Shown: piece by piece, positions 3,538-16,640 of the stretch | Layout of the letters: each line of letters starts with the position of its first letter | How positions within the stretch are numbered: the stretch's first letter is position 1 | Source: Candidatus Krumholzibacteriota bacterium | GTDB taxonomy: Bacteria > Krumholzibacteriota > Krumholzibacteriia > Krumholzibacteriales > Krumholzibacteriaceae | Assembly (NCBI GenBank): GCA_030609325.1 | Contig: JAUWCL010000024.1 | Span: 1 to 51,908, forward strand | Direction of reading: 5' to 3' | Length of the DNA: 51,908 bases | Program-made: the position numbers and the translations under genes | Notes under the pieces: model-generated | Databases searched by the model: none | What the model was told of the DNA's origin: nothing | Seen by the model: only the letters and a program-made list of their open reading frames with translations

Positions 3538-5295
3538 TCAAATGCAATTAAGCAAAAGATTGAGTATTCCCCCTACAGTCAGTGCGGAAACGACCATGAT
3601 AGCCGCGGATTTGATCATATCCACAACACCCAGCTCCCTGGTCATTACCGCGAAGGTCGCAACACAGGGGAAATACATCGCAAGGACAACACATGCCACA
3701 ATAAGCTGATTCAGTGTCAAACCGAGTGGAGAGAGCATCCCCACGGCAACGTCTTTACGCAGGAACCCGATGATCAATGCGCCCACTGCATCTTTGGGAA
3801 GTCCGAGGATCCCGGTCACGACCGGGGCCGTGAACCTGCCGATGAACTGGATGATCCGAAGTGAATAGAGGATATTTACGACAAGGACTCCCAGAAGTAC
3901 AAAAGGAACAGCTTCCTGTAAAAACCACCTTATTCTCATCCACAATTTTTTCAGCAACGCCCTGAAATAGGGAATGCGATAAGGCGGAATCTCTACAAAT
4001 ATCTCCGGGCTTTCTCCCTTTAGAACCAGGTTCAATAATATCCCCAGGACCAGCCAAACGAGGAACAAAGTTCCAAAGACCAGGCCCAGCCCCCTGGCCC
4101 CATGCTTGCCGACAAGTCCCACGATCATTGCTATCTGTGCCAGGCAGGGGACCGCTATGGCCATAAGCGTGGCGGTGATAAACTTTTCTCTCCTCGTTTC
4201 GAGCACCCTGGTAGCCAGGGCGCCGGGGACATTGCAGCCGATACCCAGCATCATCGGGATTATGGCCAGACCGTGCAGTCCCAACCTGTGCATTATATTA
4301 TCAACGAGAACCCCGAGGCGCGGAAGATAGCCCGAATCCTCCGCGAAACTCAATACCAGGTAGAAAGCAACGACATAAGGAAGAACCATGGCAAGCGGGA
4401 CAAACAGCCCTGTGGTCAAAAGCCCCAGGGATTCCACAAAATCGATCTCTCCATCCACCAATCTTCCAATCAGAATGTCGTGAATAAAACCCCCTGAGCC
4501 CAGAACGACAGAAAGTCTCATCACCACCGGCGCCCACAATTTGTCAAACAGAGGTTCAAAAAGATAGCCGATGAGACCTTCACCGATGAATCTGATAATC
4601 GTAAACATCAGATATATAAGAATCAGTGCAATGGGGATACCCGTTACAGGCTGTAACGAGGCATCGCTCAGCCTTTCCAAAAGCGTGTGATGGCGATGTG
4701 TGACCCGTTGCACCTGTTCGACGATTTTGCCCACTTCATGCCATCGATCGACCGGGTGTTTATAATTCCCAACTTTCGCCTCGGGAAATCTTGTCACCAA
4801 TTTCTTGATTCCCTCGCCGCTTATTGCGCACGTCGGAACGACCGGCACGCCAAGGATTGTCTCGAGTTCCTCTTTTTCTATCGAGATTCCGATATGCCTG
4901 GCCTCATCCGAGAGATTAAGAGCAACGATCAAAGGAATATTCCGCTCGAGTAACTGAAGGGTGAGATTGAGATTCCTTTCCAGGTTGGTAGCATCCACAA
5001 CATTGATTACCAGGTCTCTCCGTCCACTGTCAGTGACGGATTCGAGCAGCATTTCCACAGCTACCTCTTCAGCTTTTGAGGTCGGTTCGAGTGTGTAGGT
5101 TCCAGGCACATCGATGACTTCGGCCTTTTCATCGCCGAGTTTCATGTACCCTTTGGTGAACTCAACCGTAGTTCCCGGATAGTTGGAAGCAATAACGTGT
5201 GCTCCTGTAAGCCTGGAAAACACAACGCTTTTGCCGACATTAGGATTGCCCATCAAGAGCACTCTTCGGATTGTCCCGGAACTGCCATTCTTCAT
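3538..5295 (-). CDS. feoB: Ferrous iron transporter FeoB
   Basis: This is a 585-residue inner-membrane ferrous iron permease with an N-terminal GTPase domain. The G1 loop is GNPNVGKS at 16-23, G3 is DVPGTY and G4 is NLSD. A helical spacer follows, then a polytopic membrane region containing both Gate motifs (GIGCNVPG and the later FPCVATF). It is shorter than the E. coli protein (about 773 aa) mainly in the spacer and tail, which is common outside enterics. Its start overlaps the feoA stop by four bases, so the two are translationally coupled. Control by the upstream Fur-type site is expected. Confidence 0.95.
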   Translation of the reverse strand: MKNGSSGTIRRVLLMGNPNVGKSVVFSRLTGAHVIASNYPGTTVEFTKGYMKLGDEKAEVIDVPGTYTLEPTSKAEEVAVEMLLESVTDSGRRDLVINVVDATNLERNLNLTLQLLERNIPLIVALNLSDEARHIGISIEKEELETILGVPVVPTCAISGEGIKKLVTRFPEAKVGNYKHPVDRWHEVGKIVEQVQRVTHRHHTLLERLSDASLQPVTGIPIALILIYLMFTIIRFIGEGLIGYLFEPLFDKLWAPVVMRLSVVLGSGGFIHDILIGRLVDGEIDFVESLGLLTTGLFVPLAMVLPYVVAFYLVLSFAEDSGYLPRLGVLVDNIMHRLGLHGLAIIPMMLGIGCNVPGALATRVLETRREKFITATLMAIAVPCLAQIAMIVGLVGKHGARGLGLVFGTLFLVWLVLGILLNLVLKGESPEIFVEIPPYRIPYFRALLKKLWMRIRWFLQEAVPFVLLGVLVVNILYSLRIIQFIGRFTAPVVTGILGLPKDAVGALIIGFLRKDVAVGMLSPLGLTLNQLIVACVVLAMYFPCVATFAVMTRELGVVDMIKSAAIMVVSALTVGGILNLLLNCI

Positions 5296-11405: not shown

Positions 11406-12159
11406 GACTCTGAAGGTGCTGATAGTCGATGACGAGCGGCCGGCGAGAAAGGACCTGACGAGGATCCTCGGCAAGATCGAGGGGTTCGTGAAGGTCGGGG
11501 AGGCGAGCGATGGTCTCAAGGCGGTCGAGATGATCCGCACCGGCGCCCCCGACATCGTCCTGCTCGACATCCAGATGCCCGGCCTCGACGGGTTCCAGGT
11601 CCTCGGCAGGCTGGGAGAGACGGGCGACATCCCCCCCGTGATCTTCATCACGGCGTACGACCAGTACGCGATGCGCGCCTTCAACGTCCACGCCGTTGAC
11701 TACATCCTCAAGCCTGTCGACGAGGACAGGCTCCGAGAGGCCCTCATCCGGGCCAGGGAGAGAGCGGCGGGAACGGCCCCGCGCCAGAATCTCGACGAGC
11801 TGCTCCGCAGCGTCGGGGCGCTCGCGCAGAGGGTGCCTGTCAGGCGTGGAAGCGGCGTCGTAATGGTCGATGTTCAGGAGATCCTCTACGCCTGTGTCTC
11901 CGACGGAGAGGTCTCGATCGTAACGGACGATCTTGAGGGTATCTCCTCGCGCCGGTCCCTCGACGAACTGCAGTCCGAGCTGCCGGCCGGGATGTTCATG
12001 AGGGTCCACAGGGCCTACCTCGCCAACGTCTACAGGATCCACGAGATCATCCCCTGGGAGAGCAACTCGTTCAGGATTCGGATGGGGAGCGACGAGGGGC
12101 CCGTCATACCTGTCAGCCGCGCAAACGCCCGCGAACTCAAGAGGCGGTTACATCTGTGA
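11398..12159 (+). CDS. LytTR-type response regulator
   Basis: This 253-aa regulator has an N-terminal receiver domain (phosphoacceptor Asp57 in LLDIQMPG, acidic pair DDE at 11-13, and K in ILKPVDE). Its C-terminal LytTR DNA-binding domain (about 150-253) contains FMRVHRAYLANVYRI. It begins with a TTG that overlaps the kinase stop by eight bases, so the two are coupled. LytTR regulators bind paired direct repeats; none was recognised nearby, so the targets probably lie elsewhere. Confidence 0.92.
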   Translation: MSETLKVLIVDDERPARKDLTRILGKIEGFVKVGEASDGLKAVEMIRTGAPDIVLLDIQMPGLDGFQVLGRLGETGDIPPVIFITAYDQYAMRAFNVHAVDYILKPVDEDRLREALIRARERAAGTAPRQNLDELLRSVGALAQRVPVRRGSGVVMVDVQEILYACVSDGEVSIVTDDLEGISSRRSLDELQSELPAGMFMRVHRAYLANVYRIHEIIPWESNSFRIRMGSDEGPVIPVSRANARELKRRLHL

Positions 12160-12185: not shown

Positions 12186-13067
12186 TTAAACCTGTCCGGC
12201 TATTGAGGGGAAAAGTTCCTGAAGGACTGACATGAACTCTTCAATCTGATAATCGTTCCGATAGTAAGGACTTTCCCTTAAGCGGATCATACCCATACCT
12301 TCTGGATCAGCAAAATATTCCAAGACCAGCTTTCCTGCCTCCATTACATAAGGATGGGTATTATGCTTAACTATCAAATCAGGAGCAGAGCTCCATTCCT
12401 CTTCGGTTGTTGTTGCAATAATCGAATATAAATCCAGGGCATGGTATCGACCGAATTCCTTGTCTTCATCGTTGAACCTATCCTTGAAAGCAAAGAGCTT
12501 CATCATTGAATACGTGTATGGATGTGGTAAAAATACCTCTGTCTTCCAAAACTCGCCGGAACTCAGTTTTCCCTCCAGCGGCACAGATATAATGCCCTCC
12601 TCTAAGGTAGGTGCCTCGTCCACAGGGTGAGCGTGGATGCCCATGGAAGGGTCAGGCCGCGCGCGGCGAGAGTCCACCTTTACACTTGTAGATAAAAAAC
12701 TGGCCTTCGGGCCGGTAAGGAAGTCTATCTTAACGCCCCCCTTATCTGAGCCTTCTGGTCCGGGTTTTACAAACTGGTATTTTTCAGCACCGGGAACAAC
12801 CTCGTATCCCAGTTTAGCAAGGGCTTCTGCCAGGGGTTTTAATCTGGTCGATTCAATAAGGAGTTCCGGACATAGAAACAAGTCGAGGTCGATAGTGGAG
12901 CGTGGCTCTGGATATGCCACAAGTCGCGTGCGAAGATGGTTGCGCCGCACATAATCGACCTTGAGATAAATGCCAAATCCCCCACCAATAATGAGTTTGA
13001 TGTCAGAGCCATCTATCGCAAAGACTAAATCCAACAGCGATGTCTGGAGGTTAGGCATAGTAATCAT
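12186..13067 (-). CDS. Nucleotidyltransferase-fold protein (AbiEii-like toxin candidate)
   Basis: This 293-aa protein carries the nucleotidyltransferase signature of AbiEii-like proteins. GGG lies at 28-30, then RSTIDLDLF supplies Asp60 and Asp62, with a third acid Asp115 in VKIDFL. Such enzymes in type IV toxin-antitoxin systems can add nucleotides to tRNA ends. The gene overlaps its upstream partner by four bases (ATGA), so they are coupled. Composition is AT-richer than the chromosomal genes around it, consistent with acquisition. The gene is complete and all catalytic acids are present. It converges on the LytTR regulator with a small gap. Toxicity is inferred, not shown. Confidence 0.7.
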   Translation of the reverse strand: MITMPNLQTSLLDLVFAIDGSDIKLIIGGGFGIYLKVDYVRRNHLRTRLVAYPEPRSTIDLDLFLCPELLIESTRLKPLAEALAKLGYEVVPGAEKYQFVKPGPEGSDKGGVKIDFLTGPKASFLSTSVKVDSRRARPDPSMGIHAHPVDEAPTLEEGIISVPLEGKLSSGEFWKTEVFLPHPYTYSMMKLFAFKDRFNDEDKEFGRYHALDLYSIIATTTEEEWSSAPDLIVKHNTHPYVMEAGKLVLEYFADPEGMGMIRLRESPYYRNDYQIEEFMSVLQELFPSIAGQV

Positions 13068-14215
13068 GGATACGCCTTCTGAAGATTGTCAAAGATGTAC
13101 GATTTCACCTGGGTTGCGGTCTCCCGGTCACGTTTGTCGCCAGCCATCAACTCCAGGTACACCTGGACAGGGGAAGCCCACCAGAAGCAGTCCTCATACC
13201 GACCGCCAAAGTAAACCGTTTCATCCGCTGTCTCAATAAGTTCGAGGTTTGGGAAATGACGATCCTCACTACCGGATAATCTTTGAAGCAAAGCGTCTAT
13301 GCGGGGACAATATATTGATAAAAGATCTCCCCGTTGCATCAAGGCATATCGATTAACAGATGACATGCCCGTAGCCACAATGGGTAAGCTTAAAGCCTGC
13401 GATTCATTGCTTAACGATTCCAGGATATTCGTGAAATCTGCTGGAACCTTAAAACTAATCCGTTTCTTGATTTCTGGCGGTGTATAGTTCTCACCCAATT
13501 TTTGTAGCAGCTTGTCTGGTTGTAGCAGGCTGATGCCCTCTTTACGCGATATGATCAGGTCTTCTTCCAATGTTTTCAGTGCCTTCGAAACCGTGGAGAG
13601 ACTCATGGCTTTCTTGTTCGAGTAGTTCACAAGTAGATTTCGTCGGTTGATTTCTTCGTTGATATTCTGGACGGTTTCGTATCGAGAGCGAAAGAGGAAG
13701 ATCCGGCCCACCATGGAACTGTTCTTTCGATAGATATTCTTGATCGATGCAGAGGAGGTAAAGCGATTCTTTCCACCGGTGCGGTATATTGAAAATGCTC
13801 TGGGTGCTATCACCACACCATTACCGCACAGATCGATACCGCTGATCTCTTCTCGCTCCAACTCCTGCAATTGTTGTTCATTGAGGAAGGGTACGAACAG
13901 CATTGGCAGGTAGTTCATGGGGAGTGCTGTTGCTTTAAGCCGGTTGATTCCGGCTTGAAAAGCTTTAGGCGTCGAGAGCGATTTGCACTCGAGGACGAAT
14001 ATTGCTCTGCTATCACCCCAGGACACCTCGAGCAGCGCATCAGCACTGAGGTTTCCCGCTGTATTCGGCTCATATTTCATCACACGAAAAGAGAGTGGAG
14101 GTAGAGATACCTCTCCCCTTTGCAACTGTTTCAACATCTCTTTTTCTGCAGGCATTTTCCTGTTAACTCCCATATTCCTGTTCAAGAAAATAGCATTATT
14201 CAGGAAATTAAGCAA
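13064..14215 (-). CDS. AbiEi-like partner with PD-(D/E)XK nuclease-like N-terminus
   Basis: This 383-aa protein is the upstream partner of the nucleotidyltransferase. Residues about 40-130 resemble a restriction-endonuclease fold, with Asp59 (SADALLEV), then Glu76 and Lys78 in FVLECKS, and a following Gln87, the classic D-ExK arrangement. Residues 160-235 look like a winged helix (ISRK and LSTVSKALKTLEED). A C-terminal region of about 250-383 resembles the AbiEi-type effector-binding part. The start is uncertain: TTG 14215 is the longest, while ATG 14173 or 14155 are alternatives with AGGA nearby. Its role is probably antitoxin and autorepressor, but the nuclease-like domain could add its own activity. 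Low-GC codon use suggests transfer. Confidence 0.65.
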   Translation of the reverse strand: MLNFLNNAIFLNRNMGVNRKMPAEKEMLKQLQRGEVSLPPLSFRVMKYEPNTAGNLSADALLEVSWGDSRAIFVLECKSLSTPKAFQAGINRLKATALPMNYLPMLFVPFLNEQQLQELEREEISGIDLCGNGVVIAPRAFSIYRTGGKNRFTSSASIKNIYRKNSSMVGRIFLFRSRYETVQNINEEINRRNLLVNYSNKKAMSLSTVSKALKTLEEDLIISRKEGISLLQPDKLLQKLGENYTPPEIKKRISFKVPADFTNILESLSNESQALSLPIVATGMSSVNRYALMQRGDLLSIYCPRIDALLQRLSGSEDRHFPNLELIETADETVYFGGRYEDCFWWASPVQVYLELMAGDKRDRETATQVKSYIFDNLQKAYP

Positions 14216-14245: not shown

Positions 14246-14251
14246 ATTATA
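14246..14251 (-). promoter_or_regulatory. Probable -10 element of the nuclease-like AbiE variant operon
   Basis: A perfect TATAAT on the minus strand lies about 31 bases before TTG 14215. No good -35 hexamer is visible at 16-18 bases. The gap 14252-14418 otherwise holds no gene that I can support. Confidence 0.4.
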
Positions 14252-14418
14252 ACCTCATATTTGTCCCGGTGTTGAAAGTTTCTACTTAATATGGATCTTC
14301 CAGCCCATGGGCTATAGCGATGAAGCAATCCTCATGGGATATAAAAAAATACAGCGAGGGACCGGGATCTCTCCCGGCCCCCCGCTTTCCCTGTCTGCTG
14401 CCGGTCGGCCTTCTGTCG

Positions 14419-14892
14419 TCATCTCCTGTATTCGCGGCCGTTGTAGTAGGTCACCCTGTGATTGCGTTTGCCGTAGAGCCTCGCATGCCTCCGTTCCTCG
14501 CGGAGGAACCGGTTCCAGCTCTTCTGGTTCATCGCAGCGCGGACGACCGGACGGGGTACGTGCAGCCAGCGTCCGATCTCGACCCAGCGGTAGCCGTGGC
14601 GCCTGAGCCGGAGCAGTTTTCCGAACGGTACGCCAGTGTACCAGGTCAGGCGGCGCGCGATCATGCGGTCACGTCTGGTAATCTCGTAGCGCATGTACCT
14701 GCGGGCCGGGAGGCGCCTGTCCGAGTGGATATAGTAGTAACCGGAGGGATTGTTGCCTACACGTACGCTCACGTTGGGCGTATGCACGACCGCACTGATG
14801 CGGATCTCAGCCCGGGCGTCCTGTGCGATGCCGATCCCGACGACCATGGTCAGGGCGGTAAGGGTCAGCAGGCTCATCAGCGTCTTCTTCAT
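14419..14892 (-). CDS. Small, basic secreted protein of unknown function
   Basis: This 157-aa protein has a clear signal peptide (MKKTLMSLLTLTALTM, ending near AQDARA). The mature part is strongly basic, rich in arginine and tyrosine, with repeated RR pairs and a tail YYNGREYRR. The start at ATG 14892 is set by AGGAGG six bases upstream; the open frame reaches 26 codons further but without a site. I do not recognise a family. The middle segment (YTGVPFGKLLRLRRHGYRWVEIGRWL) has a helix-turn-helix-like or packing pattern, but it would be exported. It lies between two AbiE-like modules on the same strand, separated from each by about 170-200 bases, so it is probably an independent gene. Confidence 0.65.
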   Translation of the reverse strand: MKKTLMSLLTLTALTMVVGIGIAQDARAEIRISAVVHTPNVSVRVGNNPSGYYYIHSDRRLPARRYMRYEITRRDRMIARRLTWYTGVPFGKLLRLRRHGYRWVEIGRWLHVPRPVVRAAMNQKSWNRFLREERRHARLYGKRNHRVTYYNGREYRR

Positions 14893-15065
14893 GAGACACC
14901 TCCTGTTACAGCCACCCGAATCGGTGACTCGGTCATATGGTATTGCATACGGTGTTCCTGAATCGGACATGTATCGTAATTAGCTATAATACTATGAGTT
15001 GCGGAGATGTGGCTAGCCCCGGACACGATACCGGACTGGACTAACCGTGGGATGAGATGTCCTGA

Positions 15066-15979
15066 TCAGAGGACACTCCAGGGGCCGGGAGCGTTCCAGA
15101 TACATCGGAAGGGCTGATGATCCGCAAGAACGGTTACGACGGGTCTGAGGAAGGCTTCGATGGATGCGACGGTCTCGCTGAAGATCTCGGGGGCATCATT
15201 CAGCCCGGCCTTGTTGATGTATCCCATTGAATGTTCTTGTCGCTGTCCTCCGCGAATGAAGGATCAAAGACCGTCTGGTCCGCACTGACAGACGTCTTCC
15301 GGTTCCTGAATGTTTTCTCGACTGCTTCCGCCAGTGTTTCACCCTTGAAATCGAAGGTGTTCGACAGCATCCAGATATCGTAGAAATCCTTCATGCGGCT
15401 GTTCGGAACGTCGAGCTTTACCATGGCATGGAATTTCTCAGCGATAGTGCTTTCCATTGTATAGCCCTTCAGCTTCGCCCGCGGGAAATCGAGAAGCCCG
15501 GGATATTCGATTTTGCATGGGCACGGAACGATCACATCCCCGAATCCAATATCCATCTGGATGGAAATGCATGCATTCCCCAGGTTTCCCCGGAGCCTGA
15601 CACGTACGCCTTCGTACCCGGCAGTCTCTGCGATCCTGGCTGCCGTCACCGAGTTTGCGTCGAACGACATACCGGCTGGAACGACGGGCATATTGCAGAT
15701 ATCCTTTGCGGCGGAGGCAATCGCGCCGAGGCTGTTGTCGATCATTCCGAGGCAGTCGATATCCATGGTGGGGCGTGACGCGGATCCACTCCACACCGGG
15801 AGCATCAAGGCCCCCTTTAGGATGAACCTGTTCGCATGGGGGCTTTTAGACAGTCTGTAGATAAATCTCTCTATTGCGAATTTCTGTAGGAGTTCGTTGA
15901 AAGGGCGGTATGTTTCCCTGGCCGTGTTGAGGAGGCGTTGATGCACTGATGCGGCGATGTCCCTGATTTCCCGATGCAT
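15066..15979 (-). pseudogene. AbiEii-like nucleotidyltransferase toxin gene with 3' frameshift
   Basis: The open frame (15979 to 15200, 259 aa) starts one base into the upstream antitoxin stop (TAATG). It contains the AbiEii core: KGALML, then RPTMDIDCLG with Asp73 and Asp75, and later KFHAMVKLD and SRMKDFYDIW. The frame ends early at TGA 15200. Reading -1 from the GGG at 15223-15225 restores a typical AbiEii tail of about 50 residues, with GYINKAGLNDAPEIF, then AFLRP, ending in APGPWSVL at TGA 15066. One G appears to be missing from a GGGG run. The gene is therefore either recently inactivated, read by -1 slippage, or affected by a base-call error. The catalytic core is intact. Confidence 0.75.
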
Positions 15980-16605
15980 TACAGAACTGCCTCGAGATAG
16001 GGGCGGATGATCTTCTCTACCCGGCAGATCGATGAACAGCGCATGATGTCGTTCACCCTGACGTCTCCGCGATTGCGATAAGCGCGGATTGCTTCTACTG
16101 CCGTATCGAGGCCGATCCTGTTGCGGAATTTGAAGCAGTCGGCGAGTGTCTTTTCCGGACTGTAGATACGCACGCCGACTCCGTCGAGCTCGTGAATCTC
16201 CACGCCCTCCATAAATGCTTCGCCGGAGAAACGATACGTCCGGACCGGCGGGTAATCGAGCCTTGGTTCCTCGGCGCCGCGTGGAAGTGCCACATGAACT
16301 TCGTGCGGTATCTGTGTGGTGAGCTCATGGAACGACAGCGCAGAGATGAGGCATATCACGCCAGCAGGGATCCGGATCGAGACAGTCACCAGATCGGGAT
16401 TGCCCAGCGGGCTGCTGTCGGCAAGCCGGTATACTCCGCGGCTCACCTTCACCAGGATCCCCGAGTCCCTCATGGTATAAAGGGTGTCGGGGTGGATGCC
16501 CTCGCTAAGGACCTGGCTCGTGCGGAGCATGCCGCCATGCTTTCTGAAGACGGCCTCGGCCCGGCCAAATCTGGTGCTGCCGGTATTCCTGTCTTTCATC
16601 ACCAT
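15979..16605 (-). CDS. AbiEi-family antitoxin / transcriptional repressor
   Basis: This protein of about 208 aa has an N-terminal winged helix (FRKHGGMLRTSQVL, then GIHPDTLYTMRDSGILVK and GVYRL). Its C-terminal AbiEi antitoxin domain includes ISALSFHEL, a segment typical of the family, and VRIYSPEKTLADCFKFRN. In known AbiE systems this protein both neutralises AbiEii and represses the operon by binding inverted repeats. The ATG 16605 is chosen because the longer TTG start at 16632 would lie on the operator, almost at the transcription start; AGGTG precedes the ATG by about ten bases. The stop overlaps the toxin start by one base. Confidence 0.85.
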   Translation of the reverse strand: MVMKDRNTGSTRFGRAEAVFRKHGGMLRTSQVLSEGIHPDTLYTMRDSGILVKVSRGVYRLADSSPLGNPDLVTVSIRIPAGVICLISALSFHELTTQIPHEVHVALPRGAEEPRLDYPPVRTYRFSGEAFMEGVEIHELDGVGVRIYSPEKTLADCFKFRNRIGLDTAVEAIRAYRNRGDVRVNDIMRCSSICRVEKIIRPYLEAVL

Positions 16606-16614
16606 GATAATAAC

Positions 16615-16640
16615 ACCTACACATGTATACAACTGTAGGT
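16615..16640 (-). promoter_or_regulatory. Palindromic operator of the AbiE operon
   Basis: A 26-bp dyad has outer arms ACCTACA and TGTAGGT and a core TGTATACA, with 22 of 26 positions symmetric. It lies directly after the -10 element, covering the transcription start and leader. This matches the negative autoregulation known for AbiEi proteins. Confidence 0.7.

Follow-up and report, generated by a model that had tools for sequence, protein, structure and literature searches.

A divergent AbiEi_2-AbiEii-like gene pair in a Krumholzibacteriota genome and the predicted nuclease fold of its antitoxin-like protein

The window, by which we mean the whole stretch of 51,908 nucleotides of Candidatus Krumholzibacteriota DNA that was analysed (contig JAUWCL010000024.1), carries on its minus strand two overlapping genes, one for an antitoxin-like protein and one for a putative nucleotidyltransferase (NTase) toxin (Table 1). 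The coordinates of the genes and their four-base overlap, as well as the positions of D59-x16-E76-x-K78 and Q87 in the antitoxin-like protein, agree with the preliminary description of this DNA. The TTG start of the antitoxin-like ORF is probably unused; ATG 14173 (M15) or ATG 14155 (M21) is likelier, since the starts of the relatives fit these better (a methionine stands at the position of M15 in 72 of the 90 sequences of the family alignment) and residues 1-20 have very low confidence (pLDDT < 50) in the AlphaFold2 model. The promoter-like site upstream of the pair and the terminator-like stem-loop behind the preceding gene, both being consensus matches, suggest that the pair is an independent transcription unit; 4 promoter-like consensus matches were found versus 2.9 expected. 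The search for an operator near the promoter of the pair revealed no convincing inverted repeat.

Table 1 Features of the gene pair and its surroundings, in window coordinates
Feature	Position	Strand	Remarks
Antitoxin-like protein	13064..14215	minus	383 aa from TTG 14215
PD-(D/E)XK-like domain, residues 23-150	13766..14149	minus	AlphaFold2 secondary structure, Foldseek, profile match, conservation
D59	14039-14041	minus	
E76	13988-13990	minus	
K78	13982-13984	minus	
DLxGN motif, D128-N132	13820-13834	minus	
Winged helix, residues 164-230	13526..13726	minus	
AbiEi_2 C-terminal domain, residues 233-381	13073..13519	minus	presumed residue assignment
ATGA stop/start overlap of the two genes	13064..13067	minus	
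AbiEii/MenT-like NTase, putative toxin	12186..13067	minus	293 aa
Promoter-like TCAACA-18-TATAAT, upstream of the pair	14246..14275	minus	consensus match only
Terminator-like stem-loop and T run, after the upstream gene (14419-14970)	14353..14386	minus	consensus match only

The D...E-x-K motif, from which a PD-(D/E)XK-like N-terminus had been proposed, is weak by itself. Its looser form, D-x(8-30)-[DE]-x-K, is not significant (22% of shuffled versions of residues 1-150 contain it, as do 76% of whole-protein shuffles), while the exact D-x16-E-x-K arises in 0.6% and 5.9% of these shuffles, respectively. The claim of a nuclease fold therefore rests on fold and family evidence, which bears it out. 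The AlphaFold2 model of the antitoxin-like protein, based on 81 sequences (pLDDT 83.5, pTM 0.68), has an N-terminal part composed of helix 23-33, strands 42-48, 60-66 and 69-77, helix 83-100, strand 103-108, helix 113-121 and strand 125-128; this includes the alpha-beta-beta-beta-alpha-beta order of the PD-(D/E)XK fold, in which D lies at strand 2 and E-x-K ends strand 3. Because a two-residue turn connects strands 60-66 and 69-77, D59 should face E76, followed by K78; as far as this strand register (used in place of coordinates) shows, the Asp, Glu and Lys residues should cluster, and the earlier proposal is not refuted on this point. Foldseek comparison of the model with the PDB identified PaqCI (E 1.9e-4) and NucS (2vld, E 1.6e-3), and further matches comprised EndoMS (5gkj/5gke), MspJI, FokI and Hjc. 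The family profile matched NucS 2vld weakly in the N-terminal part (E=0.034), and in the profile alignment with a NucS_C-like protein the D residues coincide, as do the E-x-K motifs (E 0.0011, with a probability of only 21%); direct phmmer searches of the window proteins against the PDB gave nothing meaningful. In topology and in the placement of D...E-x-K, the N-domain resembles NucS/EndoMS and other PD-(D/E)XK nucleases.

The winged helix of the preliminary description was recovered by an HTH_Crp_2 match in the window antitoxin (E=0.0014), by MarR/HTH matches in 8 of the 11 aligned family members and in the AlphaFold2 model (helices 187-202 and 206-217 with a two-strand wing); the protein thus has the wHTH DNA-binding domain of AbiEi_2/COG4861 antitoxins. 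The AbiEi-like tail is weak in the window protein (AbiEi_2, PF09952, E=0.029 and 15.1 bits versus a curated cut-off of 21) and clear in its relatives: the profile matches 11 of 11 aligned family members, 8 of 8 relatives examined singly exceed the cut-off, in their C-terminal 140-150 residues only, and the full-length relatives that the window protein matches (E 1e-11 to 1e-20) score above it, with 23-50 bits. Foldseek matched the antitoxin model separately to the NTases MenT1, ANT(2'')-Ia, TM1012 and LnuA; its NTase matches include 5KQJ, 4FO1 and 5UVD, three NTases that DALI gave for classical AbiEi (Beck et al., PMC7319586). Since the same three NTases are matched by both, the AbiEi_2 domain probably shares the NTase-like antitoxin fold of AbiEi, here without the acidic DxD. 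The Foldseek output for this model gave no residue ranges, and residues 233-381 were assigned to the NTase matches by elimination. A duplication of the toxin that would still be recognisable in the sequence of the C-domain was considered and rejected, as the profiles show no homology, and only a similarity of fold was retained. For neutralisation of the toxin by classical AbiEi the C-domain suffices, while repression needs the full-length protein (PMC3985639; PMC7319586).

The NTase partner had been described as intact, and its key residues (GG29-30, T58 at 12894-12896, D60, D62, K190, D202 and D212) are indeed present; apart from T58, they belong to the hG[G/S]...DhD and later Lys/Asp motifs of DUF1814/AbiEii, which the family keeps with little or no variation. 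The AbiEii profile PF08843 matches 11 of 11 aligned partners, and in the window NTase it scores E=0.13 and 12.6 bits versus a cut-off of 22.5, hence the placement of this protein in DUF1814/AbiEii is based on pairing, motifs, fold and relatives and not on the PF08843 score. The AlphaFold2 model of the NTase (pLDDT 80.8) resembles TglT/MenT3 (Rv1045) and ANT(2''). Both MenT1 and MenT3 extend the 3' ends of tRNAs with pyrimidines (PMC11375011). T58, which precedes D60-x-D62, is T or S in 81 of 81 partners covering the position and aligns with the Thr of the FTRDVD of MenT1, which we take to be T39, the residue phosphorylated under antitoxin control (PMC11375011).

Single-sequence searches detected no close relative of the antitoxin in genome contigs, viral contigs or phages and none of the NTase in plasmids, and neither window protein was matched by PADLOC and PHROGs. 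Distant full-length relatives of the antitoxin (19-26% identity) occur in plasmids, genomes and viral contigs, including three genomes of the same class, nine plasmids and three viral contigs; the query with a relative found 76 plasmids. RefSeq names the relatives mostly as type IV toxin-antitoxin AbiEi-family antitoxins, beside an AbiEii/AbiGii NTase or toxin. Antitoxin relatives were found on 202 genome stretches, and among the best 80 of the 202, which were kept (L016-L095), 76 carry an NTase ORF, whole or partial, downstream in the same orientation. It is missing from L031, L035, L046 and L053; since the contigs of L046 and L053 stop no more than about 0.5 kb from the antitoxin, only L031 and L035 are clearly without an NTase. 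L055 and L075 have only a partial NTase, 268-286 bases downstream of the antitoxin, and at several other loci the NTase is a fragment or runs off the contig. The two genes mostly overlap, by 4 to 19 bases, and the DUF1814 NTase of the window is likewise adjacent and downstream, through its ATGA overlap. Both the RefSeq names and the pairing support the toxin-antitoxin reading put forward earlier.

A PD-(D/E)XK-like N-domain is present throughout the sampled AbiEi_2 relatives. That the window protein is an odd variant, as had been suggested, is not supported: nuclease fold, winged helix and AbiEi_2 tail together are the normal form of the widespread AbiEi_2/PF09952 family. The contrast with a classical antitoxin that has no nuclease core applies to the COG5340-type AbiEi only. 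PF09952 is given as COG4861 in PMC7251935, COG4861-COG4849 is a linked pair (Dy et al., PMC3985639), and Rv0837c-Rv0836c is an example of it from M. tuberculosis (PMC3968373). The window pair resembles such COG4861-COG4849, or AbiEi_2 (PF09952)-AbiEii (PF08843), pairs, e.g., Rv0837c-Rv0836c (MenA2-MenT2), in its wHTH and AbiEi_2 domains, in the overlapping DUF1814 NTase downstream and in gene order, and differs from them by its strong divergence (≤26% identity to any relative found); on the tree, the window antitoxin forms a long branch of 3.7 changes per site. The type IV system AbiEi-AbiEii (COG5340-COG2253) similarly has a wHTH, a C-domain fold matching the same NTases and an NTase toxin; classical AbiEi, however, lacks the N-terminal nuclease-fold domain. 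MenAT3/TakA-TglT (Rv1044-Rv1045) shares the NTase toxin fold and the active-site Ser/Thr before DxD; its antitoxin MenA3, unlike that of the window, is of the COG5340 type, and phosphorylation of the window toxin is hypothetical.

The N-domain triad was followed in 90 sequences; these represent the top-scoring relatives and do not amount to a random census. D59 is kept in 82/90, E76 in 67/90 (with D in 7 more), K78 in 66/90 (with R in 8 more) and Q87 in 7/90, thus Q87, included in the catalytic pattern of the preliminary description, is rejected as a catalytic feature of the family. The strict D-E-K triad occurs in 50/90 and a functional-like triad, which we define as [DE]-[DE]-[KR], in 61/90; the 29 sequences without one are scattered over the tree. 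This tree, from which the triad columns were left out, requires 20 changes between the two triad states (versus 25 in shuffles), and at least 11 of these are forced by well-supported branches. The window copy has the triad; the family as a whole does not show the conservation of it that is expected of active PD-(D/E)XK nucleases, and cleavage by the N-domain is conjectural. In contrast, all 78 complete partners, the window NTase included, retain the NTase core (GG, T/S, DxD, K), and 23 of these sit beside a degenerate triad. Two catalytic activities, as proposed earlier, are hypothetical, given the 29 of 90 members devoid of a functional-like triad. The conservation of the triad positions (0.91, 0.74 and 0.73, ranking 5th, 12th and 13th in the N-domain) is far above the N-domain median of 0.37, hence the site is often selected and some function is kept in many members. 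Ahead of the triad, the most conserved N-domain residues are G131 (1.00, 90/90), D128 (0.99, 89/90) and N132 (0.93, 84/90) of the DLxGN motif, and P109. Read economically, the N-domain would descend from a nuclease and serve in binding or sensing, cleavage being optional or lost. A sensor role has been proposed for inactive REase domains of BREX helicases (PMC12839542).

The pair lies in DNA of foreign composition, with a G+C content of 44-50% over 12.2-14.25 kb versus 59-66% on the side of the histidine kinase and LytTR genes. In two sister species, the DNA similarity to the window ends right after the LytTR gene, at window position 12157, where a methyltransferase and another gene stand instead of the pair; the methyltransferase stretch was not found in the genome of the window. 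None of the 2 other members of the genus and 17 other members of the taxonomic family that were searched has the antitoxin. The low-GC stretch together with the break of synteny argues for horizontal acquisition.

We propose, as the probable explanation, that the locus is a divergent, horizontally acquired AbiEi_2 (COG4861)-AbiEii (DUF1814) toxin-antitoxin pair, with the NTase as toxin and a neutralising C-domain in the antitoxin, where cleavage by the N-domain is not required. The NTase would be a toxin of the MenT/AbiEii type, acting by the addition of nucleotides to tRNA, and the antitoxin would neutralise the toxin via an NTase-like C-terminal domain, either by binding it, by causing its active-site Thr58 to be phosphorylated, or by both, while the winged helix would repress the promoter of the operon. 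The PD-(D/E)XK domain would be a nuclease-derived nucleic-acid-binding or sensing part, which may serve the family without cleavage; the nuclease fold is probably regulatory. Cleavage is probably dispensable because the triad has been lost repeatedly while the pairing with an intact NTase persists. Several points count against this explanation: the window proteins on their own fall below the AbiEi_2 and AbiEii cut-offs, the branch is long, the C-domain shows no sequence homology to the toxin, MenT2 had no detectable activity in one study (PMC11375011), the promoter has no clear inverted repeat nearby, and the triad is intact in the window and lies within the 13 most conserved N-domain positions.

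The presence of D59, E76 and K78, with D59 opposite E76 by the hairpin register, the strict or functional-like triads of many members and their high conservation ranks, and the fact that the Foldseek neighbours are active nucleases and that some relatives adjoin BREX or other defence genes would all suit an active metal-dependent nuclease in the window copy, i.e., two effectors acting as a two-layer defence or as a toxin-antitoxin system with a nuclease arm. If so, members with an intact triad, the window copy among them, would combine DNA or RNA cleavage with nucleotidyl transfer, the cleavage arm being lost repeatedly elsewhere. The window copy may be active as a nuclease; nonetheless, the repeated loss of the triad with retention of the NTase pair, the absence of a conserved Q and the conservation of G131, D128, N132 and P109 above the triad make this account unlikely. 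Much the same loss, in a third of the sampled family, would hardly be expected of a toxin, which speaks against a reversal of roles in which the NTase modifies and silences a nuclease-fold toxin, as MntA AMPylates HepT. An NTase antitoxin has a precedent in HEPN/MNT (PMC7641770) and the NTase is invariant in the family, but the relatives tested have DUF1814 toxins and AbiEi-type antitoxins (PMC3985639; PMC11375011), and we regard this reversal as highly improbable.

A regulator-enzyme pair with a housekeeping role, or one in decay, in either case without toxin-antitoxin activity, would agree with MenT2, the M. tuberculosis toxin of an AbiEi_2-type pair, which was omitted from one study as it had no detectable activity (PMC11375011), and with the frameshifted appearance of the neighbouring abiEii. 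We consider it quite unlikely, since both window frames are intact and keep their key residues, and the sporadic distribution, the low GC and the plasmid carriage of relatives fit a mobile toxin-antitoxin system better.

Under the preferred reading of an AbiEi_2-AbiEii toxin-antitoxin pair, the locus adds one further member to a family that is widespread and already annotated, and the more useful point is family-wide: AbiEi_2 antitoxins appear to have three domains, a nuclease fold, a winged helix and an NTase-like domain. No description of the nuclease-fold domain of AbiEi_2 was found in the partly covered open literature, nor did term searches of Makarova 2009 (PMC2701414) and of the 2026 BREX survey (PMC12839542) turn up a mention of the antitoxin-NTase pair. 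This raises the experimental question of whether the nuclease fold senses, binds or cuts nucleic acid upon release of the toxin.

Defence-gene neighbours of the relatives were noted without a baseline. At three loci from Armatimonadota and Verrucomicrobia (L027 2384-9000, L034 3875-7931 and L051 4348-8266) the pair is followed by BrxL with a 4-base overlap, and in L027 a PglX-like methyltransferase precedes it; these pairs are embedded in BREX-type operons. In Croceicoccus (L074 2945-4609), the gene upstream of the relative gave a match to PD-T7-1, a defence protein. A relative of the pair on a viral contig (L014 1148-5448) adjoins a long ORF that by eye is phage tail tape measure-like, consistent with prophage carriage. 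A stretch from Thermoanaerobaculia (L032 2964-8361) bears two tandem antitoxin-NTase copies of the AbiEi_2 family, the neighbour NTase (4015-4878) coming directly after the matched antitoxin copy.

The window itself has a second pair, of the classical AbiEi-AbiEii type, at 15200-16632 on the minus strand, about 1 kb upstream of the first. Its abiEii ORF ends early with an odd tail, and its probable continuation occupies another frame, open from ~15225; judged from the reading frames, the gene looks frameshifted near the C-terminus, or the assembly is in error. Six AbiEii (PF08843) matches, besides the divergent NTase, are found in the genome of the window (contigs C7, C9, C16 and C35).
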